A stretch of DNA of 64,000 nt from Candidatus Methanoperedens sp. (lineage in GTDB: Archaea > Halobacteriota > Methanosarcinia > Methanosarcinales > Methanoperedenaceae). The stretch is from NCBI GenBank assembly GCA_026552975.1, contig JAPMTR010000065.1:1-64000 (forward strand), written 5' to 3'. Made by a program: the position numbers and the translations under genes. Position 1 is the first letter of the stretch. Every line of letters starts with the position of its first letter. The notes beneath the pieces were generated by a model. It saw nothing but the letters and a program-made list of their open reading frames with translations, was not told the origin of the DNA and searched no databases. Positions 1 through 41,212 of this stretch are shown here, piece after piece.

Positions 1-160
1 TCCAGCCTGTTCTTCAATCCATTTTATGATAGAAGCGAGTGTGGAAGGAATTTATTAGTAGTTATTTATATAATCCAAGCGAATCATGACGGTATGGTAT
101 CAATGCATCTGCATTAGGCGAATATTATATATGCACATTCTTACCTCATGACTGAATTCA

Positions 161-382
161 TTAAGCTTCCGCTGCTGCAACTGTGGGCATTTCCAATTTA
201 AGAGCTATCAGGTCTTCCATTTTGAATTTATCCGTAACATTAAGTATCTCTAATCCTACAACCTTCCCCCCGGCATCGTAGTCCACTATGAGACCTTTGC
301 TTACTTCTTCGCTCTCTTCTATCGGATTTTCGCTTATCCTGAAATATAGAACATCACTTTCCAGATCGAGTTTTATTCTCAT
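161..382 (-). CDS. DUF2283 domain protein
   Basis: A 73-residue acidic protein with the typical DUF2283 layout. The N-terminus reads MRIKLDLESDVLYFRI, followed by a strand pair containing GLIVDYDAGGKVVGLEIL and a short Ala-rich tail. DUF2283 genes commonly sit next to DUF4258 genes in toxin-antitoxin-like pairs, and the reading frame just upstream on the same strand is a decayed DUF4258-like gene whose old stop overlaps this ATG. The biochemical role of the family is unknown. The family call rests on pattern recognition; a role as an antitoxin is inference. Confidence 0.75.
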   Translation of the reverse strand: MRIKLDLESDVLYFRISENPIEESEEVSKGLIVDYDAGGKVVGLEILNVTDKFKMEDLIALKLEMPTVAAAEA

Positions 383-550
383 AATCGATTCCTCATTCTT
401 TTATCATAAAACATTGTTATCACAGTATATGGTTCCTCTCTTCCAGTCATGATCCACAATGACAGATGTTACCTCTTCTTTTGAGATTTTTCTTTCTCTC
501 AGCATGCCAGCTTCGTACGATATGTTCTCGGTTTTGATCTGCGTCCCCAT
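379..550 (-). pseudogene. Decayed DUF4258-like gene (toxin-like partner)
   Basis: Reading from an ATG at 550 gives ISYEAGMLRERKISKEEV and VIVDHDWKRG, which resembles the N-terminal half of DUF4258 proteins. That frame stops after 48 residues at 404. In the +1 frame the sequence continues as VITMFYDKRMRNRL, which looks like the family's C-terminal strand, and ends with a TGA overlapping the DUF2283 ATG. About 30 residues of the usual middle also seem to be missing. I read this as a frameshifted, internally deleted gene that was once translationally coupled to the DUF2283 gene. The alternative is a genuine 48-residue peptide. Confidence 0.5.
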
Positions 551-575
551 TGCTAATAATTACGATCCGTATCCG

Positions 576-587
576 AATTATTTAAAA
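576..587 (-). promoter_or_regulatory. TATA box for the DUF4258/DUF2283 pair
   Basis: On the minus strand TTTTAAATAATT lies about 26-37 bases before the ATG at 550, which is a normal archaeal TATA distance for a transcript with almost no leader. I see nothing coding between this box and the plus-strand gene at 677. Confidence 0.4.
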
Positions 588-676
588 CTATCTGAACTCA
601 ATCATTATGATTCAAATAAGAATCTTATCTTTCTTTTCAGAAAAGATTTTATTGACTAAATACCAATAAACGGACT

Positions 677-895
677 ATGAAACAATCAAAAGTAATACAA
701 AAGAAATGCTGTTATATGGATAGAGATTGCACATCCGCATGTGTAGCATACAGTGCAGCGAGTGAATTTAGCGAAGGGGCAAAACAAATGGGTATGGATG
801 GTATGAATTGTATGCGCCTTCTTTTGGACATTACCGAATTAATGGGAAGGATGGAACCCAATGATTTCGATGAAGAAGACGAGGATATATTTTAA
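677..895 (+). CDS. Small Cys-containing acidic protein, unknown
   Basis: A 72-residue protein with paired cysteines near the N-terminus (KCCYMDRDC, then TSACVAYS), one more Cys in the middle and a strongly acidic tail (DFDEEDEDIF). The Cys spacing (CC-x5-C-x3-C) could bind metal, but I know no named family for it. It is preceded by an AT-rich stretch around 647-663 that could hold a TATA box for a leaderless start. It is followed 36 bases later by the M20 peptidase gene on the same strand. Coding status is supported by the protein-like composition and position; function unknown. Confidence 0.55.
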   Translation: MKQSKVIQKKCCYMDRDCTSACVAYSAASEFSEGAKQMGMDGMNCMRLLLDITELMGRMEPNDFDEEDEDIF

Positions 896-931
896 AAATA
901 TTACATGTTTAGAATACCTTCCTAAAGCATT

Positions 932-2188
932 ATGCATCCATTATTCGATTATCTGGGATCCAGGACCGATGCGACAATAAAGACACTTGATGAACTTGTT
1001 CGCATACAAACACACGTTCCGCCTGGTGATAATTATGAAAAAGCAATGGATTATGCCGCTTCAAGGTTTGAACATCTTGGTTTTGATGTCGAAAAGATAT
1101 TCATGCCTCGCGAATTATTCGAGAAAAAAAATCCCAGGCTCACTCACCTGAAAGGAGACCGGGTAAACGTGTCAGCGACGAGGGATGTCGGCGCGAAAAA
1201 AACCCTCCTTATAAATACTCATCTTGATGTCGTGCCCGCAAGTGCGAACTGGAGTACTCCCCCCTTTGAATGCACGGTAAAGGATGGACGCATCTTCGGG
1301 CGCGGTGTGGCTGATTCAAAAGGCGGGCCTGCCGCACTGTTTACGGTGCTTTCTGCTCTGGAAGAACTTGATATTCAGCCAGAGTATAACCTGAATATTG
1401 CCCTGACCACGGATGAAGAAATGGGGCCATATTCTGGCCTGTGCTATCTTGCAGACCTTGGAAAGCTCAAAGCAGATCATTTCCTGAGCATGGATGGGGA
1501 TAGCGATGATATCACCATAGCTTCAAATGGCAATATCGACTGGCAGGTCGATGTTTATGGCAGATCATATCATAGCGGCAGCAGCTTTATGGGCGTAAAC
1601 GCAATTGAGAACAGCATCCCGGTCATGAACGAATTGATGGCCCTTAAAGCGAAAGTGGAAAAAAGGCGTTCAAAAGTCCCGGCCAGTATGGCTATCACAG
1701 AAAAAACCGGCCTTAAAACGCTTATGCCTGTCCTTAATATCACGGTAATGAACGCCGGGGTAAAACAGAACATCGTTCCTGACAGGTGCACCATGAAAGG
1801 GGACAGACGCTTTATTCCTGAAGAAAACTTCGATGATGCAAGGTTGGAATTTGACAGTGCCATGAAAAATATTAAGAACAAATACCCTTACATCAATTTC
1901 AATTACAGCTGCGATGAGATCTATGCACCTATGCTTACAAATATGGACCATCCCTGGGTAAAAGAAGTACAAAAAGTAGCAGGAGAAGTTTCAGGAAGAG
2001 AAGTAAGACTTGCAGGGGCGCAGGGCAGTCTCGATGTGGCTTATGCTGTAAAGGTCACAGGATTACCTGCATGCTGCTTCGGAATAGGAAGAAGAATGGA
2101 GAGCAATGCACATGGAGATAATGAAAATATCAGGATAGAAGATCTTGAAATGTATACGAAATTCCTGGGAAAATTGATCGCTGGATAA
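932..2188 (+). CDS. M20 family metallopeptidase (ArgE/DapE-like)
   Basis: A 418-residue cytosolic two-zinc amidohydrolase of the M20 family, which includes succinyl-diaminopimelate desuccinylase, acetylornithine deacetylase and di/carboxypeptidases. Visible metal and catalytic motifs are NTHLDVVP near residue 96, GRGVADSKGG near 128 (bridging Asp), TTDEEMG near 163 (general-base Glu plus ligand) and the C-terminal NAHGDNENI near 395 (last His ligand). The dimerisation lid insertion lies at about 205-320. Length matches the family. Substrate cannot be fixed from sequence alone, and no lysine or arginine pathway genes flank it. Confidence 0.85.
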   Translation: MHPLFDYLGSRTDATIKTLDELVRIQTHVPPGDNYEKAMDYAASRFEHLGFDVEKIFMPRELFEKKNPRLTHLKGDRVNVSATRDVGAKKTLLINTHLDVVPASANWSTPPFECTVKDGRIFGRGVADSKGGPAALFTVLSALEELDIQPEYNLNIALTTDEEMGPYSGLCYLADLGKLKADHFLSMDGDSDDITIASNGNIDWQVDVYGRSYHSGSSFMGVNAIENSIPVMNELMALKAKVEKRRSKVPASMAITEKTGLKTLMPVLNITVMNAGVKQNIVPDRCTMKGDRRFIPEENFDDARLEFDSAMKNIKNKYPYINFNYSCDEIYAPMLTNMDHPWVKEVQKVAGEVSGREVRLAGAQGSLDVAYAVKVTGLPACCFGIGRRMESNAHGDNENIRIEDLEMYTKFLGKLIAG

Positions 2189-2236
2189 TTGATATTTTAT
2201 TCTATTTTGGGATAATTGATATTTTATCCTATTTTG
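2183..2236. repeat. 27-bp tandem duplication at convergent gene ends
   Basis: Two head-to-tail 27-bp copies (2183-2209 and 2210-2236) differ at one base. Each begins GGATAATTGATA and ends CTATTTTG. The first copy holds the stop of the M20 peptidase gene, and the second holds the TAG stop of the minus-strand gene ending at 2229. T-rich tracts in both could aid termination. Confidence 0.85.
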
Positions 2237-2954
2237 TTAATATAAATATAAGTAGCGATACCAGAAAGATCACTGTCAGGAACATTACCATTACCATGAC
2301 TGATAATAATGGAGTGTTTATTGTTAGGACGTCTTTCCATGTAGCCTTTTTTAAAGATTCCCACGCAATATCTTTCTTATCATTTGACCCGTCATTGAAA
2401 TCTACCACATAATTCATGGTCGCACGAACCGCCACTTCGGTCTGGTTCCCGCATGCTCCAGTTGTTTCAAGATAAAGGATAACTGATTTATTCTGAGTGA
2501 TCCTGTTATTCAAACTCCTTAATGTCTTTATGATCCTTTCAAGCATGTCATATGACATCATTGCATTCAGGTTGTCAATAATTATGATGCTTCTGCCTTT
2601 TTTTTCTATCAATTCATCTATTGATTTGAAAAGACAGTTGTAATCAGTGGGTGAAGAACAGTATTTTACCCCTTCCTTTAGGATAGCAAGCCCCATAATA
2701 TGGGTGATCATATCTATGAACTGTATATTGTCAATAATAAAATGATGAGAAACAAGTTTTTTCCCGACCAGGTCAGGAGGTTGCTGGTAGCAGACCCAGA
2801 TAATGTTCTTCATATCCGTTTCTGCAATGGATTCATACACCGCCTTATATAATTGTTCCTCTGTGGAAGGCGAAGATGGAACTGATATCAGGACGCTTTC
2901 TTTTGAAAGAATATCCTTGAATTGTTTATTTTTTTCTTGCGTCACCTGAACCAC
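2229..2954 (-). CDS. KaiC/RAD55-like protein without P-loop, C-terminal membrane segment
   Basis: A 241-residue protein. The body follows the KaiC/RecA-like fold: a strand at VLISVPSSPSTEEQ where Walker A should be, but with no GxxGxGKT, and a clear Walker B-like strand RSIIIIDNLNAMM near residue 128. A strongly hydrophobic helix at about 213-239 ends the protein, so it is probably tethered to the membrane by its C-terminus. The start overlaps the upstream KaiC-like gene by 29 bases, implying coupled translation. I infer a pseudo-ATPase partner of that KaiC-like protein, perhaps recruiting it to the membrane. Resemblance to DUF835-type domains is possible. Confidence 0.65.
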   Translation of the reverse strand: MVQVTQEKNKQFKDILSKESVLISVPSSPSTEEQLYKAVYESIAETDMKNIIWVCYQQPPDLVGKKLVSHHFIIDNIQFIDMITHIMGLAILKEGVKYCSSPTDYNCLFKSIDELIEKKGRSIIIIDNLNAMMSYDMLERIIKTLRSLNNRITQNKSVILYLETTGACGNQTEVAVRATMNYVVDFNDGSNDKKDIAWESLKKATWKDVLTINTPLLSVMVMVMFLTVIFLVSLLIFILTK

Positions 2955-3672
2955 CGATCAATACATTGTATTTGCTGTAAACATCTATTCCCTTTTCCGT
3001 GAAATCATATTGCCTTATCTCTCTTAGATGTTTTGTCCAGCGCATTTTAGCGATCTGGATCACATGGAGGATCTCATTTAAGTCCGATGACTGTACCCTT
3101 CGAAGGATAAAAAGGCCATCAACTGCGTATTCTACTATCCCTGATCTTGTTGAACAGGAGTCTATTTCGGACTCAGCCGTTATCATGGCAGTTGAGGAAT
3201 TATCTTTTATCAATCGGAATAGATTGAGCAGGCGGCTTCTGCTTTCAACTTCACTCTTACATAAGGTTATAAAATCCGTTATTGGATCAATGATAACTAT
3301 ATCTGTCTTCATATTTTTCACTGTAATTGGCAGCTCATCAAGATATTTGGAAGTAAGATGAAATTCCTCCCCTCTTAATTCCGTGTGAACAGGTTCCATA
3401 TATTTTAGAACAAGTTGCTTGTTATCAAGGAATGGTTCAAAATCCCACCCATATACAATAGATTTAGATTTTAATTCCTTTTCATTGTGATTCGATGAAA
3501 TATACAGACACTTCTTACCATTTTTCAAAGAAGCATAAAGGAATTGCAAAGACATAAGAGTCTTTCCGCTACCTGCAGGCCCCACCAATCCGATTATATT
3601 TCCTGAGTTTACTCCTCCATAAAGCATTTCATCCAATCCGGGGATACCCATACTGATCTTATCTTCTGCCAT
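2926..3672 (-). CDS. KaiC-like RecA-superfamily ATPase (single domain)
   Basis: A 248-residue single-domain KaiC/RAD55-type ATPase. GIPGLDEMLYGGV at the N-terminus is the usual KaiC opening. Walker A is GPAGSGKTLMSL near residues 31-42, and the Walker B strand is TDIVIIDPITDF near 125. The tail IAKMRWTKHLREI...GIDVYSKY resembles the KaiC C-terminal lobe. Archaeal single-domain KaiC proteins often act in signalling; ArlH of the archaellum is a relative. It is the fourth gene of a minus-strand operon that starts with a histidine kinase and two receivers, which suggests ATPase or phosphotransfer output downstream of them. That role is inference. Confidence 0.85.
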   Translation of the reverse strand: MAEDKISMGIPGLDEMLYGGVNSGNIIGLVGPAGSGKTLMSLQFLYASLKNGKKCLYISSNHNEKELKSKSIVYGWDFEPFLDNKQLVLKYMEPVHTELRGEEFHLTSKYLDELPITVKNMKTDIVIIDPITDFITLCKSEVESRSRLLNLFRLIKDNSSTAMITAESEIDSCSTRSGIVEYAVDGLFILRRVQSSDLNEILHVIQIAKMRWTKHLREIRQYDFTEKGIDVYSKYNVLIGGSGDARKK

Positions 3673-3700
3673 AATTCACCTTCAACAGTCCCTTGTGTTA

Positions 3701-4330
3701 TTATTTAATATTCATTCGATCCTTCAGGGCCGAAATTTTTGCCTTTTTCAGCTCTTCGGTGCGTTCTTGAACTTTCTTTTCCAGTTCTTCTTTTTCCTTT
3801 CGCATCATTTCCATCTGTTGTTCAACTTTATCTTTATCATGAACGATCCCATCCTGATATTTCTTATTCTTAAGAAGAGATCTTATACGAGCAAAAAGTT
3901 CATTCCTGTTTATCGGCTTGGTCAAATAATCATCAGCACCAAGCTCGATACATTTGACCTTTGCATCTGACCCAGAAAGAGCTGTCACGATCACTACCGG
4001 AATGAAGTGCGTCGATTCATTTTCCTTTATGAATTTGCATACATCATATCCTGTGACATGCGGCATCATAATATCCAGAAGCACAATATCTGGTTTGTCA
4101 CCCGTGATCTTTTCGATCGCTTCTTTGCCGCCCCCTGCTTTTATTACATCGTAATCTTTGTTCAGGTAAGCGTCCAGGACCATCAAATTAATTTCTTCAT
4201 CATCAACAATAAGAACTTTACCTTTTGATATTTTTACACCAGGATCGTTTGAAACCATTGTCCCCTGGCCATAATAACCCCAATTGGGATCATATTCAGG
4301 CTTTTTAACATCAGTTTCATTCGGATTCAT
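3701..4330 (-). CDS. Response regulator: receiver plus coiled coil
   Basis: A 209-residue protein with a receiver domain at about 38-160: KVLIVDDEE acid pocket, phospho-acceptor Asp in IVLLDIMMP, Thr in VIVTAL and Lys in YLTKPIN, all canonical. After it comes a charged coiled coil with KVEQQMEMMRKEKEELEKKV and ERTEELKKAK. This looks like the linker that usually leads into a kinase domain, but the protein ends there. The N-terminal 35 residues are low-complexity and unassigned. Its start overlaps the stop of the upstream receiver gene by four bases (ATGA), so the two are coupled. Confidence 0.88.
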   Translation of the reverse strand: MNPNETDVKKPEYDPNWGYYGQGTMVSNDPGVKISKGKVLIVDDEEINLMVLDAYLNKDYDVIKAGGGKEAIEKITGDKPDIVLLDIMMPHVTGYDVCKFIKENESTHFIPVVIVTALSGSDAKVKCIELGADDYLTKPINRNELFARIRSLLKNKKYQDGIVHDKDKVEQQMEMMRKEKEELEKKVQERTEELKKAKISALKDRMNIK

Positions 4331-4701
4331 TTACTCTCCTTTTCGAGAATTTCATTTATTAAATTTATAAAATCTGTGACATGAATGGGTTTTGACATAT
4401 AATGATCAAAACCCAGATCAAGGAATTTCTCCCTGTCTCCTTTCATGGCAAAAGCCGTCAAAGCAATTATTGGTATTTTATTATTACGGGGTATGGCCTT
4501 TATTTTCCTGGTCGTTTCAATTCCATCCATAACAGGAAGTTCTATGTCCATTATTATCATGTCGTAGTGATCTTTATCGACCATTTTCAAAGCCTCAAAA
4601 CCATCGGTGGCTTTATGGACATTGAGATCCAGGGAATCCAGGATATCAGAAACCAGTTTCATATTCATCATATCATCCTCTACAATAAGAATGTTCGTCA
4701 T
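4327..4701 (-). CDS. Single-domain response regulator (CheY-like fold)
   Basis: A 124-residue stand-alone receiver. Canonical residues are visible: NILIVEDDMM acid pair, Asp in MIIMDIELP, Thr in IALTAFA and Lys in YMSKPI. It overlaps by four bases with both the kinase upstream and the coiled-coil receiver downstream, so kinase, receiver and receiver form one translationally coupled unit. It probably takes phosphate from the 790-residue kinase. It resembles Spo0F/DivK-type relay receivers more than motility CheY. Confidence 0.88.
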   Translation of the reverse strand: MTNILIVEDDMMNMKLVSDILDSLDLNVHKATDGFEALKMVDKDHYDMIIMDIELPVMDGIETTRKIKAIPRNNKIPIIALTAFAMKGDREKFLDLGFDHYMSKPIHVTDFINLINEILEKESK

Positions 4702-7070
4702 CCCTTGACCACCTGTTTTACGGGAATTGTGAAAGTGAACGTACTGCCTTCACCAATAACGCTTTCCACCCTTATATCTCCCCCATGCAATTCAACGAGT
4801 TTCTTTGAGATCACAAGTCCAAGACCCGTACCCCCATATTTTCTTGTGATACCGGTATCAAGTTGCTGGAACTCATTAAATAATTTTTCCAGATTCTCTT
4901 TCTTTATTCCAATACCGGTGTCAGAAACAGAGAACTCTGCCATTTCACCAATCTTCTTCACCTTTACTGTGATTTTTCCACCTTCTTCTTTGCTGAATTT
5001 CACCGCATTGCTAAGAAGATTAAAAAGCACCTGTTTTATTCTCTGTTTATCCCCCTCAATAGATCCCAGTTGAGGGTCAATATTCTTGATAACGTCTATA
5101 TTGTGTTGCATTGCCTTATATTTAACAAGGGAATGAGTTTCTCCCATAAGCTCATCCACAGAAAATCTCTCGATCAACAGTTCCATCTTACCTGATTCCA
5201 CTTTTGAGATATCGAGGATATCGTTGATGATCAATAATAAATGGTCACCAGCGCTATGAATATCTTTTACGTATCCCTTTTGCGTTTCATTTAAACTTCC
5301 CCCTATTCCCATAGTCATGATATCAGAAAAACCTATTATTGCATTTAGAGGTGTTCGAAGTTCATGGCTCATCGATGCGAGGAACTCTGATTTGGCTTTA
5401 TTTTCAGTTTCAAGACGGATGTTCTTGATATGAAGATCATGAGCGATCTTCCTTTCGGCGATATCACGAACTGTTGCCTGAAGGACCTGTTTTCCTTTGA
5501 AGTTAAAAGCACTGAGCAATACTTCAGCGGGGAAATCTTCTCCATTCTGTCTTCTATGTACCCATTCAAAATGGTTCGAACCTTTTGTGAAAGCCTCGGT
5601 GATCCTTTTATTCGCTGCTGTTCCCGAATCTTCCCCATCAGGCTGGTTAGGAGGGGAAACTTGAGATGGATGTATTTTTGTAAAATCTTCTTTATTATAA
5701 AATCCAAATATCTTAAGTGTTGCATCATTGCAGTCAAAAAAACCTTTTTCATCAAGAAGCATGATTGCATCCGATGATCCTTCATACAGCATCCTGTATT
5801 TTTCTTCAGAATCCAATAGCTTTTCCTCTGCACGCTTGCGTTCGACAAGATCCCAGCCAAGATCTCCAAGAAGCCTGGTATTCTCAACATCTGCTTTATC
5901 ATAAACCACAGATTTATTACCAACACCAAGAATAGCCATTATCAGGTTATCCCGGATTATCGGAATGACAAGCTCCCTGATCACAGGTACATGGCCAGGC
6001 GGCAGTCCCTTGCGATGAGGCAGTTCCTGGTAGTTATTGTGAATAACAGGACACTGCTGATAAAAACACTCAGCCCAGACTCCTGCTTCGGAAATATCAT
6101 ATTCTTGTCCCTTTCCCTTTGTTTTACACATTTCTACAAGCGCATTTGTTGACCATTTTTGAAATGTAATTGTTCTTTGGTCTTTATCAAGGAAATAAAA
6201 GAAACCGATCTGACTCCTTGTGAGCACTTCAATTTCATCAAGGGTCTTCTGGAGCAGTTCATCCACAGAGTGTGATAGGGAAAATTCCACGAGGCGAGTG
6301 CGAGCTTCAAGAATTTCTTGCCTTTGCTTTCGTTCTGTTATATCCCTGAGTATCCCTGAAAAATAAACTGTTTCTCCTGCCTTCCAGGTGGAAAGCGAAA
6401 GTTCCAGGGGAAATTCAATCCCATTTTTGCGAAGACCTGACAGTTCAACTTTATTACCAATAACATGAGACTTTCCTGTGGCGATGAACCGATCCAATCC
6501 TTTTAGATGTGCATCCCTGTATTTTTCCGGGATCAGGATTGTCAGGGGCTTGCCAATAACTTCTTTTTTATCATACCCGAATTTATTAATAGCGCCATTA
6601 TTCCAGAAAATTATCATACCCTTAGAATCGATCGTGATGATAGCATCGTTCGCAGACTCTGTTATGGAACGCAAATGCTCTTCGTTTTCTTTAAGGGTTT
6701 GATCAAATTTCTTGCGGTCTGTTATATCACGCATAAATGAATAGAACTTTCCGCCATCTGCAGGATCATAATTAACACTGGCTTCGATATCGATAATTCT
6801 TCCATCCTTGCATTTATGACGGGTTTCGAAGCGATCATGGCCCTCCGTTAAAACTCGATGAATGCGTTTTGCGATCATTTCCTCCGTTTCTTTAGCCTCG
6901 ATATCTTTCAGGCTCATTTGAAGCAATTCTTCCAGGCTATAACCGGTCATAGAACAATATGAATCATTGGCATCCAGTATGCGCCCCTGGGAGTCTACCA
7001 GATAAAAACCATCCATGGCGGTTTTAAGTATGGTCTTATATTCCGACACTGTTTTCTTGATTTCAGTCAT
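4698..7070 (-). CDS. PAS-PAS-GAF-PAS histidine kinase
   Basis: A 790-residue soluble sensor kinase with no membrane segment. Domains in order: PAS at about 8-120 (FYLVDSQGRILDANDSYC), PAS at 128-248 (AIITIDSKGMIIFWN), GAF at 262-410 (IGFFYFLDKDQRTITF), PAS at 422-545 (AIMLLDEKGFFDCN), HisKA at 558-625 with the phospho-acceptor His in SMSHELRTPLNAIIGF, and HATPase_c at 670-785 with N box NLLSNAVKFS, DTGIGI and GGTGLGLVISKK. PAS and GAF domains often bind haem, flavin or small ligands, but the ligand is unknown here. First gene of a five-gene operon; its stop overlaps the next receiver by four bases. Confidence 0.92.
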   Translation of the reverse strand: MTEIKKTVSEYKTILKTAMDGFYLVDSQGRILDANDSYCSMTGYSLEELLQMSLKDIEAKETEEMIAKRIHRVLTEGHDRFETRHKCKDGRIIDIEASVNYDPADGGKFYSFMRDITDRKKFDQTLKENEEHLRSITESANDAIITIDSKGMIIFWNNGAINKFGYDKKEVIGKPLTILIPEKYRDAHLKGLDRFIATGKSHVIGNKVELSGLRKNGIEFPLELSLSTWKAGETVYFSGILRDITERKQRQEILEARTRLVEFSLSHSVDELLQKTLDEIEVLTRSQIGFFYFLDKDQRTITFQKWSTNALVEMCKTKGKGQEYDISEAGVWAECFYQQCPVIHNNYQELPHRKGLPPGHVPVIRELVIPIIRDNLIMAILGVGNKSVVYDKADVENTRLLGDLGWDLVERKRAEEKLLDSEEKYRMLYEGSSDAIMLLDEKGFFDCNDATLKIFGFYNKEDFTKIHPSQVSPPNQPDGEDSGTAANKRITEAFTKGSNHFEWVHRRQNGEDFPAEVLLSAFNFKGKQVLQATVRDIAERKIAHDLHIKNIRLETENKAKSEFLASMSHELRTPLNAIIGFSDIMTMGIGGSLNETQKGYVKDIHSAGDHLLLIINDILDISKVESGKMELLIERFSVDELMGETHSLVKYKAMQHNIDVIKNIDPQLGSIEGDKQRIKQVLFNLLSNAVKFSKEEGGKITVKVKKIGEMAEFSVSDTGIGIKKENLEKLFNEFQQLDTGITRKYGGTGLGLVISKKLVELHGGDIRVESVIGEGSTFTFTIPVKQVVKG

Positions 7071-7286
7071 ATGAAATACCTGAGTAAATTAAAGAACTTC
7101 ATCCTTCCGTTGTCATATTTCGTTGATATTGTTATTTCCAATTCTTATAATGATGATGATAATAATTGTGTATATAACATATATAACTTGCGGTGACTAA
7201 AACACCTGGCCCTTCTGGAATAAAAGAAAAGTATCCAGGGAACTAATATTTAAATACAGATAATACATAATTACCATAGTGATATC
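7071..7286. promoter_or_regulatory. Divergent promoter region
   Basis: A 216-bp AT-rich spacer between the minus-strand kinase operon and the plus-strand gene at 7287. TATTTAAATA at about 7247-7256 sits some 31-40 bases before the plus ATG and is a good archaeal TATA box. On the minus side, alternating TATATA near 7160-7180 could serve the kinase operon, giving a leader of roughly 70 bases. Confidence 0.45.
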
Positions 7287-8621
7287 ATGCTCAGCCAGAT
7301 AGTATTCCTTTTCTGTGTCACCGTGCTCCTCTATGCAGGTCTAGGTGTTTATGTCCTGAAAAAGAACCCGAACGACCGCAGCAACCAGATGTTCGCCATA
7401 ATCATGCTTCTTTTTATTATGTGGTCAGTTATCATCTATAACATAAATCTCATAGCCAGTGACGCACCCCTCACCGAAATATTTCCGGCCGTGAAGATCC
7501 AGTTCAGTGGCATGATACTTGCCCTTGCGGCTTTTGTAAGCCTTTCTTTTTCAGACAAAAAAGCGGCTATAAGAAGCCCCATATTGCTTCTGATTATTAT
7601 ATTGTCCGCATATAATATATATATTATCTGGGCAACTGACATCACACAGATAGGAGTTGATGTTTTCACAAAGATCTCGTGGAACCTGACAGATTATTTC
7701 CTTATCTCATCAGTTTTCGGGATCGCAGGTGTTTATCTGCTATTCCGGTACTATATGAAAAGCAAATACAGACAGCCGGATCAGGCAAAACTCATACTGG
7801 CAGGGGCTATCATGGCTGTTATGGTCTCGATAATAGCGAACATAATACTCCCCATGTTCTTCAACATTTACCTGCTTGGCCTGACAACATTTTCCCCGGC
7901 CGTCATGGGTCTTTTTTTTGCTTATGCAGTTTACCAGTATGGATTCTGTATAAGACCTGTTCATGAGATATCACCCACATCTTTTTGCGGAGTGAATTGT
8001 ATGGCATGTATAGAATATATAGACGGGAAATGCATTGGATGCAGGTTTGAAAAAGATAGATACATGAATTGTGATATTTACAAGTGCCTGATAAAGAAAG
8101 AATGCTCGGAATGCGCGGATTGTATCGAAATAATTGACTGCAAAAAACGAAAAGAAATAGCGTGGAAATGTTTATGCCAGAATCAGAAATTCTCACTCTC
8201 CCCCGGCACCTTCCTTGTGGAGGATAATGGTTATGAGATACTGGTTGATTCAATGAAGACGGGAAAGCTTGGCCTTGTCGCCACGGCCCAGCAGCCATCA
8301 CATGTCAGGGAAAAACATGATATCAAGACAACAACTATTGTTTGGATATCGAATGACTCTGACGGTATAGACCCCAAAAAGCTTGAAAAACTTGGGCTTA
8401 TACTTGCCAAATCCATGAAAATCCTGGAAGGATCCGGCGGTGTCGTTCTCCTGGATGCAATAAAAGAACTGATAGACGTCAATGGAAATCAAAAAGTCCT
8501 GGATTTTGTAAAATTTCTTGATAATGCGGCAAAAAAGCATAATGTGACTTTGCTCATCACCCACTCTGGTGGTGAATTTGAAGACCTTTTGAAGAAAGAG
8601 ATTAAACACCAGAAGTTTTGA
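7287..8621 (+). CDS. 7TM N-terminus, Cys-rich cluster and DUF835 domain protein
   Basis: A 444-residue membrane protein. Residues 1-220 hold about seven hydrophobic helices, like the 7TM sensor region of some histidine kinases. Residues 232-290 are Cys-rich: FCGVNCMACIEY, GKCIGCRF, MNCDIYKC, KECSECADC and IIDCKK, with a spacing reminiscent of DUF3795 or ferredoxin-like metal sites. Residues 300-440 match DUF835 (LGLVATAQQPSHVREK, TTIVWIS, GGVVLLDAIKELI), a KaiC-like signalling domain. I infer a redox- or metal-responsive membrane signalling protein. The next gene starts three bases after the stop, so the two are co-transcribed. Confidence 0.75.
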   Translation: MLSQIVFLFCVTVLLYAGLGVYVLKKNPNDRSNQMFAIIMLLFIMWSVIIYNINLIASDAPLTEIFPAVKIQFSGMILALAAFVSLSFSDKKAAIRSPILLLIIILSAYNIYIIWATDITQIGVDVFTKISWNLTDYFLISSVFGIAGVYLLFRYYMKSKYRQPDQAKLILAGAIMAVMVSIIANIILPMFFNIYLLGLTTFSPAVMGLFFAYAVYQYGFCIRPVHEISPTSFCGVNCMACIEYIDGKCIGCRFEKDRYMNCDIYKCLIKKECSECADCIEIIDCKKRKEIAWKCLCQNQKFSLSPGTFLVEDNGYEILVDSMKTGKLGLVATAQQPSHVREKHDIKTTTIVWISNDSDGIDPKKLEKLGLILAKSMKILEGSGGVVLLDAIKELIDVNGNQKVLDFVKFLDNAAKKHNVTLLITHSGGEFEDLLKKEIKHQKF

Positions 8622-8624
8622 ACT

Positions 8625-9137
8625 ATGAAGGAACCAGAGGAAGACTGTAAATTAGAGATTAACGCCCAGGAAGATGTATCAGTGTCAGAAGTCCTGAAAC
8701 TTTTGATAAAATATATCCTGTGTAAGATGAATCTTCAGAAGATATTATTTCTGTTCACGTTCCTATCCTTTGGGGCCGCAGATGGTATTTCCGCCGCATA
8801 TATGATAGATGAGCAAGGAGTTATCAGTGAATCAAATCCCCTTATACGGTACATGTATGCATCACGCGGGAAAGGTGGTGTTATTGAGATCAAGCTCTGG
8901 CTCGTCCTTATCATGCTTTATTTTGTATGGAATATCTCAAAGGGCAAAAATAATTACTGGATGATCAATGGTTTCTTATTCGCACTTTTCGTATGCGGTT
9001 TGATGGCCACAGGAGCCAATATTATGGCTACAAAGGGTCTTGAATATCCAGCTTCCAGCACGATCATCACGACATACCTTTTCCTCGTGTTGTTGTTAAC
9101 CATGCTGGGAGATGCTATGGACAGGCTTTATCATTGA
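8625..9137 (+). CDS. DUF5658-type membrane protein
   Basis: A 170-residue protein with a soluble N-terminal tail of about 38 residues and three or four membrane helices. The motif GAADGISAAYMIDEQG followed by SESNPLIRYMY matches the conserved D...E.NP pattern of DUF5658 membrane proteins. Function of the family is unknown. It follows the 7TM/Cys/DUF835 gene by three bases, which suggests that they act together in the membrane. Confidence 0.65.
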   Translation: MKEPEEDCKLEINAQEDVSVSEVLKLLIKYILCKMNLQKILFLFTFLSFGAADGISAAYMIDEQGVISESNPLIRYMYASRGKGGVIEIKLWLVLIMLYFVWNISKGKNNYWMINGFLFALFVCGLMATGANIMATKGLEYPASSTIITTYLFLVLLLTMLGDAMDRLYH

Positions 9138-9182
9138 AACGCCAATTTCATATAGCTTCAGGCATATTACACAATAGATATT

Positions 9183-10223
9183 ATGGCAAACGTAGCGATC
9201 ATCGGAAGTGAAAAATCAGGCAGGACAAGCCTTGCAGGAAAACTGGGAAAAAAAGGCACCGAGTCGGATATCACACTCTATAATTTTGTGAAAGGGGACA
9301 GGATATATGCATTCGTGGATTCAAATGGTTATCCATCTTCTTTTAAAACGCTTATCCAGGCGATCAATCTCTCGGATATCGTGCTTGTATGTATTCCTTC
9401 AACAGGCCTGAATGCACAGGTGGGAGAATGTATCGTAGCCCTTGACATGCTGGGGGACAAACGAGGACTATTTGTGATAACGATGTCGGATAAGTCAAAT
9501 CCTGCCGCTATTTCAGAATTATCAGAAAAGATCAAAACGATTGTAAAAGGAACTAACCTTGAAAAATGGGAAACGATCGCGGTTTCAAATACCACGTTCG
9601 AAGGACTTGAAAGTCTTAAAGAGAGAATTTTTATCCTTGGTGAAGAAGCACGCACATCAAATGCCTCCAAAATAAATCTCCCATCAAGGATCATTGTTGA
9701 TCATTTTTTTAATGTGACAGGCATCGGATGTGTGGTACTTGGAATAGTAACTCAGGGGACCATAAAGGAACACGATAAGCTGACACTGTACCCAACAGAA
9801 AGACCAGCAGAGATACGCTCTATCCAGAGCAATGACGTTGATATGAAATCAGCACCAGCAGGGACAAGGGTGGGACTTGCATTAAAAGGGGTACAATCCA
9901 AGGAATTTGATCGTGGCTATTTGCTCTCACAGAAAGAGGAAGTGGCATCTAAATTCAATTTGAAATGCCACCTCACAAAATTCACACAGGGACTTGGCGT
10001 TGGAGATGCTGTCCACCTGTTCGCAGGACTCCAGGATATTCCTGCAACAATAAACTCAATGACCATTGGCGGAAAGGATGCTACACAGGCGCCGCCAGGT
10101 TCTGATTGTATTGTTGTGCTAACGACCCAAAAAGCCATTGCGTACAGGAAAGATGACCGTTTCCTGATCATCCAGCTTAATAATCCAAAACAGAGGATAG
10201 TTGCAGGATGTGATGTAGCTTGA
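9183..10223 (+). CDS. EF-Tu/SelB-like protein with degenerate GTPase domain
   Basis: A 346-residue protein with the three-domain plan of EF-Tu/SelB. The G domain at about 1-160 is shortened and altered: the P-loop reads GSEKSGRTS, with Arg instead of the catalytic Lys, the Switch II-like DxxG may be DSNG, and the NKxD motif is replaced by TMSDKS. Domain 2 (about 168-250, including GIGCVVLGIVTQGTI and GTRVGLALKG) and domain 3 (260-346) look normal. Related non-canonical EF-Tu-like proteins occur in methanogens. It may bind a tRNA or ribosome without ordinary GTP cycling. It is not the main elongation factor. Confidence 0.75.
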   Translation: MANVAIIGSEKSGRTSLAGKLGKKGTESDITLYNFVKGDRIYAFVDSNGYPSSFKTLIQAINLSDIVLVCIPSTGLNAQVGECIVALDMLGDKRGLFVITMSDKSNPAAISELSEKIKTIVKGTNLEKWETIAVSNTTFEGLESLKERIFILGEEARTSNASKINLPSRIIVDHFFNVTGIGCVVLGIVTQGTIKEHDKLTLYPTERPAEIRSIQSNDVDMKSAPAGTRVGLALKGVQSKEFDRGYLLSQKEEVASKFNLKCHLTKFTQGLGVGDAVHLFAGLQDIPATINSMTIGGKDATQAPPGSDCIVVLTTQKAIAYRKDDRFLIIQLNNPKQRIVAGCDVA

Positions 10224-10259
10224 AACATGGACTTTTGTCATATGCAGGAAATTTGTCTG

Positions 10260-10280
10260 AACCGCGAACACGGATAGAAC
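10260..10280. repeat. Short fragment related to the dispersed ATCCGNG repeat
   Basis: The stretch containing ACCGCGAACACGGATAGAAC, just before the ATG at 10281, shares the ACACGGAT and ATAGAAC words with the 42-bp dispersed repeat at 22222 and 48061. It is too short to be sure that it is homologous. Confidence 0.3.
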
Positions 10281-11075
10281 ATGAATGATTCCCAGTATTA
10301 CAAACTTTGCAATGATGTAACAATTGAAATAAAAAAGGCGACTCTTGGTCTTATCGGGAAACCTGAAGCCGGGGAAATATTAAGAATAGGAGCAGATGGA
10401 ACGCCTACTGATAAGATAGATGACGTTGCAGAAAATGCCGCCCTGTCAGTACTTGAAAATGATGGAAGATCGATGCTTTTCATAAGCGAGGAACTGGGTG
10501 AGAAAAGGATAGGGGGAAAACCCGAGTTTACCTTCGTGCTTGACCCAATAGATGGGACATTCAATGCAGTTAACAACATACCTTTTTTTTGCGTTCCCAT
10601 TGCGATAGGAAGGTCTGACCTGTCAGATATAAAATATGGTTTTGTGAAGAATCTTGTCAATGATGATATCTATTTCGCCGAAAAAGGAAAAGGAGCATTT
10701 TTGAACAACAGGAAGATCCATGTGTCAAATATTTCAGAGATATCAAAACTCAGCGTGCTGTCATACAGCCACCGACCGAATGCAATGCCTGTCAATAATC
10801 ATAATGTCAGGCGTGTGAGGGTCTATGGAAGTGCAGGGCTTGAATTATGCTATGTCGCAGCGGGGTTATTCGATGCCTTTTTCGATATGCGTGGAATGCT
10901 TCGAATTACAGACATCGCAGCTTCAAAGATAATAGTTGAAGAGGCAGGAGGAATGATCACTGATGATAAAGGAGGGAAACTTCTTACGCCCCTTAATGTG
11001 AGGGAAAGATTGAACATGATAGCAAGCAATGGATTTGTGCATGATGAACTGCTCAAGACCTGTGTGGAGGAGTAG
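10281..11075 (+). CDS. Inositol monophosphatase / fructose-1,6-bisphosphatase family
   Basis: A 264-residue Mg-dependent phosphatase of the archaeal IMPase/FBPase family. Metal-site motifs are SEELGEK near residue 72 and the signature DPIDGTFNAV near 93, plus the C-terminal ITDIAASKIIVEEAGG near 212 with the third Asp. Archaeal members act on inositol-1-phosphate, fructose-1,6-bisphosphate and sometimes NADP. The NAD kinase gene starts six bases after its stop. In Methanocaldococcus the same two domains are fused in one protein (MJ0917, NADP phosphatase/NAD kinase), so this pair may be a split version that sets the NADP/NAD balance. The substrate is inference. Confidence 0.85.
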   Translation: MNDSQYYKLCNDVTIEIKKATLGLIGKPEAGEILRIGADGTPTDKIDDVAENAALSVLENDGRSMLFISEELGEKRIGGKPEFTFVLDPIDGTFNAVNNIPFFCVPIAIGRSDLSDIKYGFVKNLVNDDIYFAEKGKGAFLNNRKIHVSNISEISKLSVLSYSHRPNAMPVNNHNVRRVRVYGSAGLELCYVAAGLFDAFFDMRGMLRITDIAASKIIVEEAGGMITDDKGGKLLTPLNVRERLNMIASNGFVHDELLKTCVEE

Positions 11076-11081
11076 AAAATT

Positions 11082-11903
11082 ATGAAAAAGATCGGTTTAA
11101 TTTCACGATGCGATAAAGAAGGCGTACTTACTCTTGTTGAAAAGATAATAGTTCATTTACGATCCAGGGCGGATGTCCTGCTTGACCCGAAAACTGCCCA
11201 AAAACTCCATCTAAAAGGAACTGAAATGGCAGATATGAGAAAAAATGAAGCGGAATTTATAATATCAATTGGTGGCGATGGGACAGTTCTTCGCGGGATC
11301 CAAAAAATGGATGATCCACTCCCGGTTCTTGGGATTAACATGGGCACCATCGGTTTTCTTGTGGATGTGGCGCCGGATGACTCACTCTCCGTTATCGACA
11401 GGGTCCTGGAAGGTTTTGAGGTCGAAGAGCGTTCACGTCTGAGTATCATGGTTAATGATGAGATCCTGCCTTGTGCGACCAATGAAGTTGTTATAATTAC
11501 CGCAAATCCTGCCAAGATGCTCTCCTACCGGATCCTGGTTGACCGGAGCCATCTTGAAGAACTTAGGGCTGACGGGGTCGTATTCGCAACTCCCACAGGT
11601 TCGACCGCGTATGCCATGAGCGCTGGCGGCCCGATCATCGATCCAAGAGTTGATGGTATGGTAATAGTCCCGCTGGCGCCGTATAAGTTGTCCTCTCGCC
11701 CATGGGTCTTACCTGCAGGATGTGAGATAAAAGTTGAATTGACCACCCCGAAAAAGGATGCCGTGCTGGTGATAGATGGGCAGTATTCAAGAACGATAAA
11801 AGAGGAGGACAGAATCATTATAACAAGGGCGGATAAGCCGGCACGGTTTGTGAAAACGCGGGAAGATGGGTTCTTTGAGAAGGTAAGGAATAAGCTTGCA
11901 TAA
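11082..11903 (+). CDS. nadK: NAD kinase
   Basis: A 273-residue ATP-NAD kinase making NADP. The family signature GGDGTVLRGIQ is near residue 65, NMGTIGFLVD near 87, the NE/D-type NAD-binding loop near CATNEVVI at about 130 and the C-terminal GGSTAY-like element as TPTGSTAYAMSAGGPI near 173. Length fits the archaeal enzymes. Six bases separate it from the phosphatase-family gene upstream. Confidence 0.92.
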   Translation: MKKIGLISRCDKEGVLTLVEKIIVHLRSRADVLLDPKTAQKLHLKGTEMADMRKNEAEFIISIGGDGTVLRGIQKMDDPLPVLGINMGTIGFLVDVAPDDSLSVIDRVLEGFEVEERSRLSIMVNDEILPCATNEVVIITANPAKMLSYRILVDRSHLEELRADGVVFATPTGSTAYAMSAGGPIIDPRVDGMVIVPLAPYKLSSRPWVLPAGCEIKVELTTPKKDAVLVIDGQYSRTIKEEDRIIITRADKPARFVKTREDGFFEKVRNKLA

Positions 11904-11915
11904 GTTGGAAAAATA

Positions 11916-12533
11916 ATGGAACTAGAATTCAAAAAGGATAAAATAATATTTGATAGGGAACTTTCTTTACTTGATAGATTTGTTATAAATTTCACAGACC
12001 ATCTGGACAATAATAATATTAAATATGTAATCATATCAGGTTATGTTGCGATTCTTTTTGGGAGAAGCAGGATGAGCGAAGATGTGGACATTTTCATTGA
12101 AAATATATCTTTTGAGAAATTCTTGAAATTCTGGTCTGAAATTGAGCCAACCTACGAATGCCTCAATACAGGCAACTCTTATGAAGCATATGACGATTAT
12201 TTGAGAAATCATCAAGCCATTAGGTTATCTACTAAAGGAAGTTTCATTCCTAATATTGAGTTGAAATTTGTAAAAAATGACCTTGACAGGTATTCCCTCG
12301 AAAATAGAAAGCGAATAGAGCTCACAGATAAATCATTATATATATCCCCTTTTGAATTGCAGATTCCTTATAAGCTATTTCTGGGGTCTGAAAAGGATAT
12401 TGAAGATGCGCGGTTCCTTTTCAAACTTTTCAAAGATAATTTAAATATTGTATTGCTCAAAATGTTTCTATCCAGACTGAAAGTTCCAGATGATCAGGTC
12501 AAAAGATACCTGGGAGGTTTTGATGATAATTGA
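11916..12533 (+). CDS. Nucleotidyltransferase-fold protein
   Basis: A 205-residue protein. SGYVAILFGRSRMSEDVDIFIE at about 39-60 carries the hG[GS]...DxD pattern of the Pol-beta-like nucleotidyltransferases found in toxin-antitoxin and aminoglycoside-type enzymes. The rest is helical with FKKDKIIFDRE at the N-terminus, and includes PFELQIPYKLFLGSEKDIEDARFLF, which resembles the helical part of DUF6036/AbiEii-like proteins. It is more AT-rich than the NAD kinase before it, suggesting an accessory gene. Its end overlaps a 53-residue ORF by 11 bases. Substrate unknown. Confidence 0.7.
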   Translation: MELEFKKDKIIFDRELSLLDRFVINFTDHLDNNNIKYVIISGYVAILFGRSRMSEDVDIFIENISFEKFLKFWSEIEPTYECLNTGNSYEAYDDYLRNHQAIRLSTKGSFIPNIELKFVKNDLDRYSLENRKRIELTDKSLYISPFELQIPYKLFLGSEKDIEDARFLFKLFKDNLNIVLLKMFLSRLKVPDDQVKRYLGGFDDN

Positions 12534-12684
12534 CATTGAAGAATTAAAAAAAGAGAAAGATACCAATTTTAAGGAACGATTAGATTTCATAGACAAATAT
12601 GTTGAGTGGATAAAAACCACACCGAATAAAGTCTGGTCTAAACAACATAAAGACTTTATAGACAGTGCATTTAAAAAACTATGA
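12523..12684 (+). CDS. Small partner ORF of the nucleotidyltransferase
   Basis: A 53-residue charged protein starting MIIDIEELKKEKD and ending IDSAFKKL. I chose the ATG at 12523 rather than the earlier in-frame ATG at 12490, because GGGAGG at 12512-12517 lies five bases before it. It overlaps the end of the nucleotidyltransferase gene, so translation is likely coupled. The small size and overlap resemble toxin-antitoxin architecture, but I do not recognise the family. Confidence 0.6.
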   Translation: MIIDIEELKKEKDTNFKERLDFIDKYVEWIKTTPNKVWSKQHKDFIDSAFKKL

Positions 12685-12744
12685 AATCTCATCTGTATTA
12701 ATTGATGGAAAAATGATTTATATCCACCCTCTAATTGAGGAAGC

Positions 12745-13338
12745 ATGCGTATCGGAGTTATTGCCATCCAGGGAAATGTCGAAGAACATGTTGATTCCCT
12801 CAGAGCTGCATTGAAGCAGGCACAAATCGAGGCAGATATCATTAAAATAAAACACGCCGGATTGGTTCCATCATGTGATGCCATAATAATTCCGGGTGGT
12901 GAGAGCACGACCCTGGGGCGATTCATGGAGCGCGAAGGTATGGCTGGAGAGATAAGAATTGCGGCCAGATCAGGCATACCCATTATGGGAACATGCGCAG
13001 GGCTTGTTCTTCTTGCAAGAAATGGTGATGAACAGGTTGAGAAAACAAACCAGGCATTGCTTGGGCTGATGGATATCAGCATCAACAGGAACGCATTCGG
13101 GCGCCAGAAGGATTCGTTTGAATCATTGATCGGTTTTAAGGGATTTGAGGAACCTTTCAGGGCTCTGTTCATCAGGGCGCCGTGCATCACAGATCATGGA
13201 AAAGAGGTTGAAATATTATCTATTTACAATGGCGTTATCGTTGCAGCAAGACAGAAAAACCTTTTAGCCCTTGCCTTTCATCCTGAACTTACAGATGATC
13301 CAAGGATCCACCATTATTTTTTAAAAATGATAGGATAA
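12745..13338 (+). CDS. pdxT: Pyridoxal 5'-phosphate synthase glutaminase subunit
   Basis: A 197-residue class I glutamine amidotransferase that supplies ammonia to PdxS for vitamin B6 synthesis. Family motifs: IGVIAIQGNVEEH at the start, PGGESTTLGRFM near residue 52, the nucleophile Cys in GTCAGLVLLA near 84, RNAFGRQKDSFE near 112 and the His/Glu pair in AFHPELTDD near 178. Length is typical. pdxS is not in this window. The ATG follows GGAAGC, a weak ribosome site. Confidence 0.93.
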   Translation: MRIGVIAIQGNVEEHVDSLRAALKQAQIEADIIKIKHAGLVPSCDAIIIPGGESTTLGRFMEREGMAGEIRIAARSGIPIMGTCAGLVLLARNGDEQVEKTNQALLGLMDISINRNAFGRQKDSFESLIGFKGFEEPFRALFIRAPCITDHGKEVEILSIYNGVIVAARQKNLLALAFHPELTDDPRIHHYFLKMIG

Positions 13339-13345
13339 ATTCCTA

Positions 13346-14488: not shown

Positions 14489-14548
14489 GGATTCACTTCT
14501 GTGTTATATAGATAAACAAAGGTCTCTTTAATCTTTCCATATTATTAT

Positions 14549-16622: not shown

Positions 16623-16629
16623 GTTCCTC

Positions 16630-18120: not shown

Positions 18121-18127
18121 AGTGCCC

Positions 18128-37999: not shown

Positions 38000-38011
38000 A
38001 ATTACACCTTT

Positions 38012-39064: not shown

Positions 39065-39076
39065 AAGAAATAAACA

Positions 39077-39433: not shown

Positions 39434-39509
39434 TTTTCCTCCAAGCAATATAATTTTAATGTGTTAATATTTAAAATATAATTGATCATCTATACATGTT
39501 AATTCCAGC

Positions 39510-39533: not shown

Positions 39534-39556
39534 ATCGTTGTGTGAATTTACAAAAA

Positions 39557-41209: not shown

Positions 41210-41212
41210 GAT

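Follow-up and report, generated by a model that had tools for sequence, protein, structure and literature searches.

The question raised by this locus is what a sensor kinase and two receivers act upon when the genes behind them encode two KaiC-like proteins, one with and one without an ATP site. The output of archaeal two-component systems is thought to be mostly protein-protein interaction and less often DNA binding, and most stand-alone receivers have no known partner, according to the available parts of PMC5847659 and PMC11784639. The window analysed here (64,000 nucleotides of a Candidatus Methanoperedens sp. contig) carries on its minus strand, from 7070 to 2229, a five-gene set that codes for a histidine kinase (HK, 790 aa, 4698..7070), a stand-alone receiver (REC1, 124 aa, 4327..4701), a second receiver (REC2, 209 aa, 3701..4330), a KaiC-family protein with a P-loop (248 aa, 2926..3672), and a P-loop-less protein of 241 aa with a GTG start (2229..2954), hereafter pseudo-KaiC, an inactivated KaiC (iKaiC). 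All five open reading frames, which an earlier note on this DNA had described as coupled, are present: REC1 overlaps the HK stop by 4 nt, REC2 overlaps REC1 by 4 nt, KaiC follows REC2 after 28 nt, and pseudo-KaiC overlaps KaiC by 29 nt.

The first three genes form a two-component system by their domains (Pfam) and motifs (by reading), namely a HisKA plus HATPase_c kinase and receivers with a phosphoacceptor Asp. Specifically, HK has the architecture PAS-PAS-GAF_2-PAS-HisKA-HATPase_c, with three PAS stretches, HisKA at 75.9 bits, HATPase_c at 111.8 bits and the H-box SHELRTPLNAIIGF, and has no clear membrane helix by hydropathy (top 19-residue mean 1.55). Response_reg scores 96.7 bits in REC1, with the phosphoacceptor region IIMDIELP and a Lys within MSKPI, and 99.8 bits in REC2, which is extended at the N-terminus by about 38 aa and has, by reading, a charged, coiled-coil-like C-terminal tail.

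The fourth gene codes for a clear KaiC relative (PF06745, 162.6 bits against a cut-off of 26.6) that, compared with the circadian clock KaiC, is a single domain with no CI-CII duplication (71.2 bits against the circ_KaiC cut-off of 546.25). Its Walker A motif (GPAGSGKT) and Walker-B strand (DIVIIDPITDF), both anticipated by the earlier note, are intact and are accompanied by a KMRW motif close to the C-terminus; GxxGSGKT and the Walker-B Asp (D129) are kept in all ten members of the subfamily, and K209 and R211 are invariant among the ten paired KaiCs. The description of this protein as an active KaiC is not supported, since the Glu-Glu that follows the second strand, which we take to be the catalytic pair of ATP-hydrolysing KaiC, is replaced. 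The two positions, which align to the EES of a solved KaiC, are Asn-His here (YISSNHN) and are both substituted in 10/10 paired KaiCs, never by an acidic residue, whereas Glu-Glu is retained in 17 of the 20 closest paralogues read (a count that leaves out a second KaiC frame in L074, which does not cover the catalytic positions, and the G000:C102 place, for which there is no locus). The KaiC of G058 (43% identity) also lacks Glu-Glu, and the surrounding 13.2 kb read contain no pseudo-KaiC match. The absence of both glutamates, as in the window's own ArlH, suggests that KaiC probably binds ATP, the binding itself being presumed, without turning it over. Alternatively, KaiC could be a working ATPase or autokinase with another catalytic base, and pseudo-KaiC an adaptor or inhibitor of it, much as the earlier note proposed. 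The invariant P-loop, D129 and K209/R211 would suit such an enzyme, and ArlH autophosphorylates without hydrolysing ATP (PMC8978795, in the part available), but the uniform replacement of Glu-Glu by non-acidic residues makes this alternative unlikely.

The product of the last gene has the features first ascribed to it, i.e., no P-loop, a Walker-B-like strand (SIIIIDN) and a C-terminal membrane helix. By reading, GxxxxGK[ST] is absent from the first loop in 13/13 aligned rows, and the C-terminal hydrophobic stretch reaches a Kyte-Doolittle 19-residue mean of 3.16 at residue 221; the tail anchor recurs in 14/14 members by hydropathy and in a fifteenth (L097) by reading. The best Pfam match is DUF835 (PF05763), at 31.6 bits slightly under the cut-off of 33.1, while the copy on contig C22 (see below) exceeds it with 35.5. 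The AlphaFold model (pLDDT 81, with blocks 21-180 at 81-94) retrieves PH0284 as top Foldseek match (E 6.5e-7), followed by KaiC and FlaH, and VIA-align gives Z-scores of 16.1 for PH0284 (rmsd 2.9, 176 aligned), 14.3 for KaiC and 13.8 for FlaH; the predicted core is thus that of the KaiC/RecA fold, and the structure search, in which an unrelated fold would have spoken against the earlier note, speaks for it. The comparison of pseudo-KaiC with KaiC profiles by hhalign is in register although not significant (probability 0.3%), and homology therefore rests on structure together with weak DUF835/KaiC HMM matches; a sequence search of the PDB with the pseudo-KaiC alignment returned two matches (E 0.12 and 0.7), neither meaningful. 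Two other identities were considered and rejected: an unrelated membrane protein, in view of the Foldseek and VIA-align matches to the KaiC fold, and a decaying gene, in view of a dN/dS of 0.163 to the C22 copy and retention in 15 loci.

Three cysteines of pseudo-KaiC (C55, C99 and C107) are invariant in ten paired and five unpaired tail-anchored members, while a fourth varies, and C55 aligns two residues before the catalytic-Glu position. A speculative and quite improbable reading is that a cysteine site took the place of the lost ATP site and made pseudo-KaiC a redox or metal sensor in the membrane, on which an ATP-bound, non-hydrolysing KaiC would be seated as part of a mixed ring or stack. 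One KaiC assembly would then integrate the phosphate signal of the receivers with a redox signal; if true, this would provide a KaiC switch with no need for ATP turnover. Outside the operon, a divergent gene on the plus strand (7287..8621, 444 aa), which starts 217 nt upstream of it and is absent from the earlier note, codes for a protein with a HisKA_7TM sensor (PF16927, 46.7 bits), a weak DUF3795-like Cys-rich stretch (17 bits, below cut-off) and DUF835 (PF05763, 43.2 bits), the first and last above their cut-offs. By its domains, this protein appears to be a second membrane-tethered iKaiC-type protein near the operon; its AlphaFold model, made with two input sequences, is unusable (pLDDT 44.7).

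The conserved unit of the operon is its last two genes. In a search that covered 149 relatives and one further locus, with a first pass that scored at most 18 candidates per genome in most rows, pseudo-KaiC lies directly downstream of KaiC in 10/10 loci found for the subfamily (53-100% identity). The two genes overlap in eight of them, and in the other two they are separated by gaps of 1 and 19 nt, as judged from longest-frame starts. The distances of the partners correlate over the ten pairs (r 0.91, with 0/10000 permutations as high), as shared descent alone would also make them do. Tail-anchored pseudo-KaiC stands alone in 5 of 15 loci (L047-L051/L100-L104), two of them on contigs of only 4.3 and 6.4 kb. 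The KaiC fold, the tail anchor in all members examined and the invariable adjacency together make the notion of a pseudo-ATPase paired with KaiC well founded, and the two proteins presumably make physical contact.

The link of this pair to the two-component genes is less regular. The kinase and both receivers precede it in only 2/10 loci, both in the assembly of the window, and the operons of the other eight have neither kinase nor receiver; hence, the pair does not need two-component input in cis. The order of neighbours that the earlier note expected to be conserved is therefore conserved for KaiC and pseudo-KaiC but not for the genes ahead of them. The second of the two loci, on contig C22, carries diverged homologues of all five genes in the same order (REC1 63% and REC2 64% identical), with a dN/dS between the copies of 0.11-0.28 for each gene (0.275 for HK over 746 aligned codons), and all five genes are under purifying selection. 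C22 also encodes another kinase (303 aa in the part read, near the contig end) upstream of the first. An extrachromosomal or foreign origin of C22 was considered and rejected: with a GC content of 0.405 and a tetranucleotide distance to the window of 0.130, C22 resembles five further contigs of the assembly in composition (0.098-0.131), and no tandem arrays were found on it. Since loci of two other Methanoperedens genomes lie at 0.111, however, C22 may be a contig of a close relative in the bin, and the second copy is therefore to be understood as a copy in this assembly.

Further evidence of the link comes from the assembly as a whole and from two other gene arrangements. A same-strand receiver lies within 1.5 kb in 3 of the 13 KaiC loci of the assembly, against 0.24 expected under random placement (P 0.002), although C1 and C22 do not count as independent loci. 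Moreover, a parallel operon type, REC1 - REC2::MetOD1 - KaiC - inactive KaiC, is present on contig C58 of the assembly and in nine further genomes (eight congeneric, one from the same family); REC2, KaiC and inactive KaiC share contig and strand in 10/10 loci, the two KaiC genes are adjacent in 9/10, REC1 is beside REC2 in 6/10, and an HK lies upstream in the four read. Lastly, in family f5, taken to be Methanosarcinaceae, the pseudo-KaiC domain is fused to a receiver in a single protein (iKaiC-REC), whole in nine loci retrieved on account of their match (L117 and L056 are one locus, and L057, from G112 and also beside archaellum genes, is outside the count). The earlier claim of a two-component output module is thus supported in part, by the recurrence of the parallel order and by the fusion, with the 2/10 count speaking against it.

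These observations bear on the possibility that KaiC and pseudo-KaiC work on their own as a membrane platform (serving, e.g., a surface structure, motility or cell polarity), while the kinase and receivers are merely co-transcribed and have unrelated targets of their own. Such independence would agree with the eight pairs lacking two-component genes in the operon, with HK-REC1-REC2-like cassettes that have no KaiC match (L144 and L145), and with the closest REC2 relatives outside the assembly (67% identity in G016; 65% in G012, inside a CheA/CheB-like cluster), neither of which adjoins KaiC. It is nonetheless doubtful, given the five-gene layout found twice in the assembly with each gene under purifying selection, the recurrence of receiver, KaiC and inactive KaiC in the second operon type, and the f5 fusion.

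The pair could also serve a type-IV-pilus or archaellum machine, with KaiC as an ArlH-like regulator of the motor ATPase and pseudo-KaiC as its membrane seat. KaiC and the window's ArlH have in common an intact P-loop and a missing Glu-Glu, iKaiC-REC lies by archaellum genes in 6/9 of the fetched f5 loci, and the window itself holds an archaellum and chemotaxis cluster at 34.6-45.9 kb. This cluster, however, begins 27.5 kb away and includes an ArlH of its own, and the score of KaiC for the NCBIfam ArlH equivalog is 51.4 bits, the cut-off being 215. In addition, a tblastn search (E 1e-3) with the window's ArlF, ArlG, ArlI, ArlJ and archaellin is negative for the other nine pair loci, of which 5.9-18.7 kb each were read, and for window positions 1-20000, and this role is accordingly judged quite unlikely.

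The explanation favoured here, with confidence slightly above even, is a sensor-kinase/receiver relay whose output would be a membrane-bound switch made of two unequal KaiC-family proteins. The PAS/GAF kinase would phosphorylate REC1 and REC2; these would act on the KaiC/pseudo-KaiC pair by binding to it, which would determine its assembly state and, hence, what the pair recruits at the membrane. KaiC, which keeps the ATP site without the catalytic glutamates, would most likely act, like ArlH, as a slow assembly switch dependent on nucleotide or phosphorylation and not as an ATPase. Pseudo-KaiC, its ATP site gone, would be held in the membrane by the C-terminal helix and dock KaiC there, forming the edge of a KaiC ring or stack or capping it. 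KaiC and pseudo-KaiC would be the conserved core, to which kinase, receiver and receiver would have been joined as a lineage-specific input. The ring or stack architecture, the control by the receivers, the direction of the signal and the downstream target are parts of this model that we infer.

The earlier statement that no such system had been described is too strong. The available part of PMC5847659, citing Makarova, Galperin and Koonin 2017, ties KaiC hubs to two-component systems and lists REC-DUF835 and iKaiC-REC proteins; the link of KaiC, inactive KaiC and two-component genes is thus already published, and the operon of the window is a new variant of it. In the literature searched, no match combines Methanoperedens and KaiC, DUF835 appears only in PMC5847659 (seen in part), PMC11784639 has zero occurrences of KaiC, and the word 'tail-anchored' occurs in none of the papers among the matches listed. 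Testable sets of kinase, receiver, KaiC and pseudo-KaiC are offered by this locus, by its copy and by the parallel operon type, and the KaiC pair may be what the receivers of these sets target. The Glu-Glu-less KaiC subfamily with its membrane pseudo-KaiC (10/10) is a simple case for the role of KaiC assemblies without ATP turnover.

Among the closest known systems, the Elongator subunits Elp4/5/6 form a RecA-fold ring of subunits without P-loop, in a eukaryotic tRNA-modification complex that is not known to have a membrane anchor; the structure of Elp456 (4ejs) matches the pseudo-KaiC model with a Z-score of 13.4, and only the fold is in common. The parallel operon has the same gene order, a REC1 54-61% and a REC2 receiver part 52-54% identical to those of the window (four loci read), and a last gene whose product is related to KaiC and has a ruined P-loop, but its KaiC keeps Glu-Glu and is 25-29% identical to that of the window, its inactive KaiC is DUF7125-like and without hydrophobic tail (highest mean 1.23), and its REC2 carries MetOD1 (Pfam, L136). 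The f5 iKaiC-REC has a joined receiver and a pseudo-KaiC domain homologous to that of the window (best E 1.7e-15 to 1.8e-7 per genome; no match to the domain in genera g19 and g20 among the matches listed), but it is one fused chain, without hydrophobic tail in the two measured, and lies beside alaS, often with the archaellum cluster and, in 3/9 loci, with a GvpD-like double-domain KaiC as neighbour. ArlH (FlaH), described in the available part of PMC8978795 as a hexamer that binds ATP without hydrolysis and autophosphorylates, is likewise a single KaiC domain with a P-loop, in the window also without Glu-Glu, and aligns to the pseudo-KaiC model as well; the KaiC of the operon differs in falling below the ArlH cut-off, in lying outside the archaellum operon and in having a membrane pseudo-KaiC partner. 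In the archaeal KaiC/iKaiC hubs, as far as the available part of PMC5847659 goes, KaiC-like ATPases and inactivated homologues are likewise linked to two-component genes; in the subfamily of the window, by contrast, the inactivated KaiC is a protein of its own, with a tail anchor, and its partner in 10/10 loci is a KaiC that lacks Glu-Glu.

The five-gene operon is most simply explained as encoding a membrane KaiC switch that has acquired receiver input on more than one occasion. The operon occupies 7070 to 2229 of the minus strand on contig C1 (the window's contig, in an assembly of 2.57 Mb in 121 contigs) and codes for a histidine kinase (HK), two receivers (REC1, REC2), a 248-residue KaiC (2926-3672), and a 241-residue protein (2229-2954), which confirms the anatomy described in the earlier note. 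Of the four junctions between the genes, three are overlaps (4, 4, and 29 nt) and one is a gap of 28 nt, and the five genes are therefore read as one operon. Pfam resolves the kinase as PAS-PAS-GAF-PAS-HisKA-HATPase_c, recognizes the two receivers, and scores the KaiC-family protein at 162.6 bits, while the top match of the 241-residue protein is DUF835 (31.6 bits against a cut-off of 33.1), accompanied by a weak KaiC match. The nearest NCBIfam model for the KaiC is KaiC_arch_3, at 171.9 bits and below the cut-off of 249.45. A divergent plus-strand gene (7287-8621), located 217 nt upstream of the kinase gene, codes for a 7TM sensor with DUF835 (Pfam) and its product is a second membrane-tethered inactive-KaiC (iKaiC)-type protein; at locus L094 of genome G018, a homologue with 74% identity is found at a distance of 4.4 kb from the KaiC pair, again with DUF5658 and EF-Tu-like neighbors.

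By its predicted structure, the 241-residue protein is a pseudo-KaiC. Specifically, the AlphaFold model, built with 13 sequences, reaches a pLDDT of 81 and a pTM of 0.70, with blocks 21-180 at 81-94, most of residues 189-208 below 50, and a single long helix at residues 206-240. The Foldseek comparison with the PDB, proposed in the earlier note as a check, returns a KaiC-family fold, with PH0284 (E 6.5e-7, TM 0.56), KaiC, and FlaH as the best matches, and VIA-align yields Z values of 16.1 for PH0284 (rmsd 2.9 over 176 residues), 14.3 for KaiC, 13.8 for FlaH, and 13.4 for Elp456. Sequence profiles alone are no proof of homology to the partner KaiC, as hhalign assigns the comparison of the two profiles a probability of 0.3%. 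A 19-residue C-terminal hydrophobic stretch scores at least 2.55 in all 14 tail-anchored members; the nine tail-less relatives score at most 1.42 at any position. Cysteines C55, C99, and C107 are invariant in the 13 aligned rows and in the alignment of the ten pairs, in which C168 varies, and C55 and C99 are also retained in the tail-less relatives and in the iKaiC-REC fusion. One tail-less pseudo-KaiC of about 247 aa (L055) keeps the three cysteines and is convergent to a MinD/ParA-like ATPase, and a convergent neighbor of similar size is present at six further loci (L052, L058-L062).

The core of the system is a two-gene KaiC/pseudo-KaiC module. Among 149 relatives, the near-full-length pseudo-KaiC occurs at 14 places in 13 genomes at 33% identity or more (90 genomes in total when weaker matches are counted), and nine of these places, together with a further locus found by genome-contig scan in a Methanosarcinaceae archaeon (L097), directly follow a KaiC of the window's subfamily. 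The reverse search from the KaiC side (E <= 1e-40) returns, among the matches listed, nine places at 54% identity or more, ten with L097, and the pseudo-KaiC adjoins the KaiC in 10/10, so that the pairing of a pseudo-ATPase with KaiC proposed earlier is borne out. The next KaiC by similarity among the matches listed, in G058, is 43-47% identical and has no pseudo-KaiC match within the 13.2 kb read. Five other genomes (Methanosarcinales archaeon/ANME-2 cluster) carry a tail-anchored pseudo-KaiC with no KaiC match in stretches of 4.3-13.7 kb. Distances among the KaiC proteins correlate with those among the pseudo-KaiC proteins (r 0.91), as shared descent would likewise yield. At two loci from outside the family of the window (L097:8243-11549 and L046/L098), a 121-129 aa protein, coiled-coil-like by reading, comes after the pair, and a double-domain KaiC of 492-494 aa is found nearby at the same loci.

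The presence of two-component genes in the same unit, also part of the earlier proposal, holds for the window and for C22, another contig of the window's assembly, both with HK-REC1-REC2 upstream of the pair, and fails in the other eight of the ten loci, whose operons lack them. The C22 copy, at a locus with two kinases, is 79% identical to the window in pseudo-KaiC, 81% in KaiC, 64% in REC2, and 63% in REC1, with dN/dS between 0.11 and 0.28 for every gene; C22 could be a contig of a close relative, in which case the five-gene layout would be common to two lineages. The eight remaining loci, whose neighbors were Pfam-scanned in part, have different surroundings, including an FAD-dependent oxidoreductase (G033), a presenilin-type peptidase and prephenate dehydratase (G022), deoxyhypusine synthase (G005), DUF7504 and KaiC-GTPase proteins (G003), a VUPS-REC protein on the opposite strand (G076), and a kinase and REC-PAS gene at least 3.6 kb upstream on the opposite strand (G024). 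At L054:4523-6398 (on contig C52 of the window's own assembly) and L040:8720-10633, KaiC and an Arf/Ras-like GTPase domain form a single protein, encoded beside a DUF7504 KaiC-like protein; in G003, this cluster adjoins the pair. In the window's assembly, a same-strand receiver lies within 1.5 kb of 3 of 13 KaiC loci (expected 0.24, P 0.002, under a random-placement model that is blind to operon structure and with C1 and C22 non-independent).

A second operon with a similar order emerges from the search for relatives of the receivers in 60 genomes. This C58-type operon, present on contig C58 of the window's assembly and in other genomes of its family, is ordered HK, REC1, REC2, KaiC, and an inactive KaiC of 229 residues; its REC2 carries an additional domain, which Pfam identifies as MetOD1 in L136. 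The KaiC retains Glu-Glu and the P-loop of its 229-residue relative is ruined in the four read of each. At the ten places where the inactive KaiC is found at 58% identity or more, matched by hand, a KaiC always shares its contig and strand (as direct neighbor in nine, at 2.1 kb in G033), REC2 is upstream in 10/10, and REC1 is beside REC2 in 6/10 at the threshold applied, with the kinase upstream in all four loci read. On six further contigs (G005:C17, G007:C57, G011:C60, G026:C72, G042:C44, G054:C95), a REC2-like receiver match and a C58-type KaiC match share a strand and are no more than 0.6 kb apart, and an inactive-KaiC match is absent. Counting against this link, the loci read around the two closest relatives of REC2 outside the assembly (67% in G016, 65% in G012) contain no KaiC match. 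The G012 relative (L138, G012:C123) is the last gene of a CheA/CheB-like cluster, in which hybrid kinase genes accompany the CheA-like and CheB-like ones.

In family f5, taken to be Methanosarcinaceae from the published range of the iKaiC-REC fusion, a homologue of the pseudo-KaiC and a receiver form one protein. At the nine loci fetched for the fusion, alaS adjoins in all, an additional receiver is present in four, a GvpD/KaiC-like double protein in three, and archaellum genes in six, with none found in the stretch read at the other three. The order at L056, L057, and L109-L117 is alaS, (GvpD/KaiC-like double protein), iKaiC-REC, (REC), and archaellum cluster, and two f5 genera (g19, g20) have no pseudo-KaiC match among the matches listed. 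The window has its own minus-strand archaellum and chemotaxis cluster (34597-45868), with CheC, CheR, CheA, CheB, T2SSF/T2SSE (ArlJ/ArlI-like), an ArlH-like KaiC, small ArlG/ArlF/archaellin-like proteins, and a diverged receiver, the Arl labels being assigned by reading.

The Glu pair is catalytic in KaiC. At the positions aligned to the Glu-Glu of a solved KaiC, all ten subfamily members carry N-H, S-H, N-S, L-H, or A-H, while the P-loop, D129, K209, and R211 are retained; the closest 20 paralogues read have Glu-Glu in 17 and Asp-Gln or Glu-Gln in three. To judge from these residues, the window-type KaiC is probably not an ATPase, and "active", as the earlier note had it, is too strong. The G058 KaiC has lost Glu-Glu as well and has no partner in the stretch read, so the loss can occur without a partner. 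The ArlH of the window (42857-43549) also lacks the pair (YVSTQLTT). According to a published study, ArlH binds ATP without hydrolysis and autophosphorylates, and the phosphorylated form departs its hexamer (PMC8978795).

Computation gives the pairing of the two proteins, the KaiC fold, the membrane anchor, and the loss of residues, and we infer a contact between KaiC and pseudo-KaiC, a ring architecture, and a direction of signaling. The membrane switch would consist of an ATP-holding KaiC and a tail-anchored partner without an ATP site, to which receiver input may have been coupled more than once. No published account of the KaiC/pseudo-KaiC pair in Methanoperedens was found, Makarova et al. 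2017 lying outside the search. Archaeal signaling hubs of KaiC-like and inactivated KaiC proteins are already described in the literature (PMC5847659), which also covers MetOD1 and fusions of the REC-DUF835 and iKaiC-REC types.
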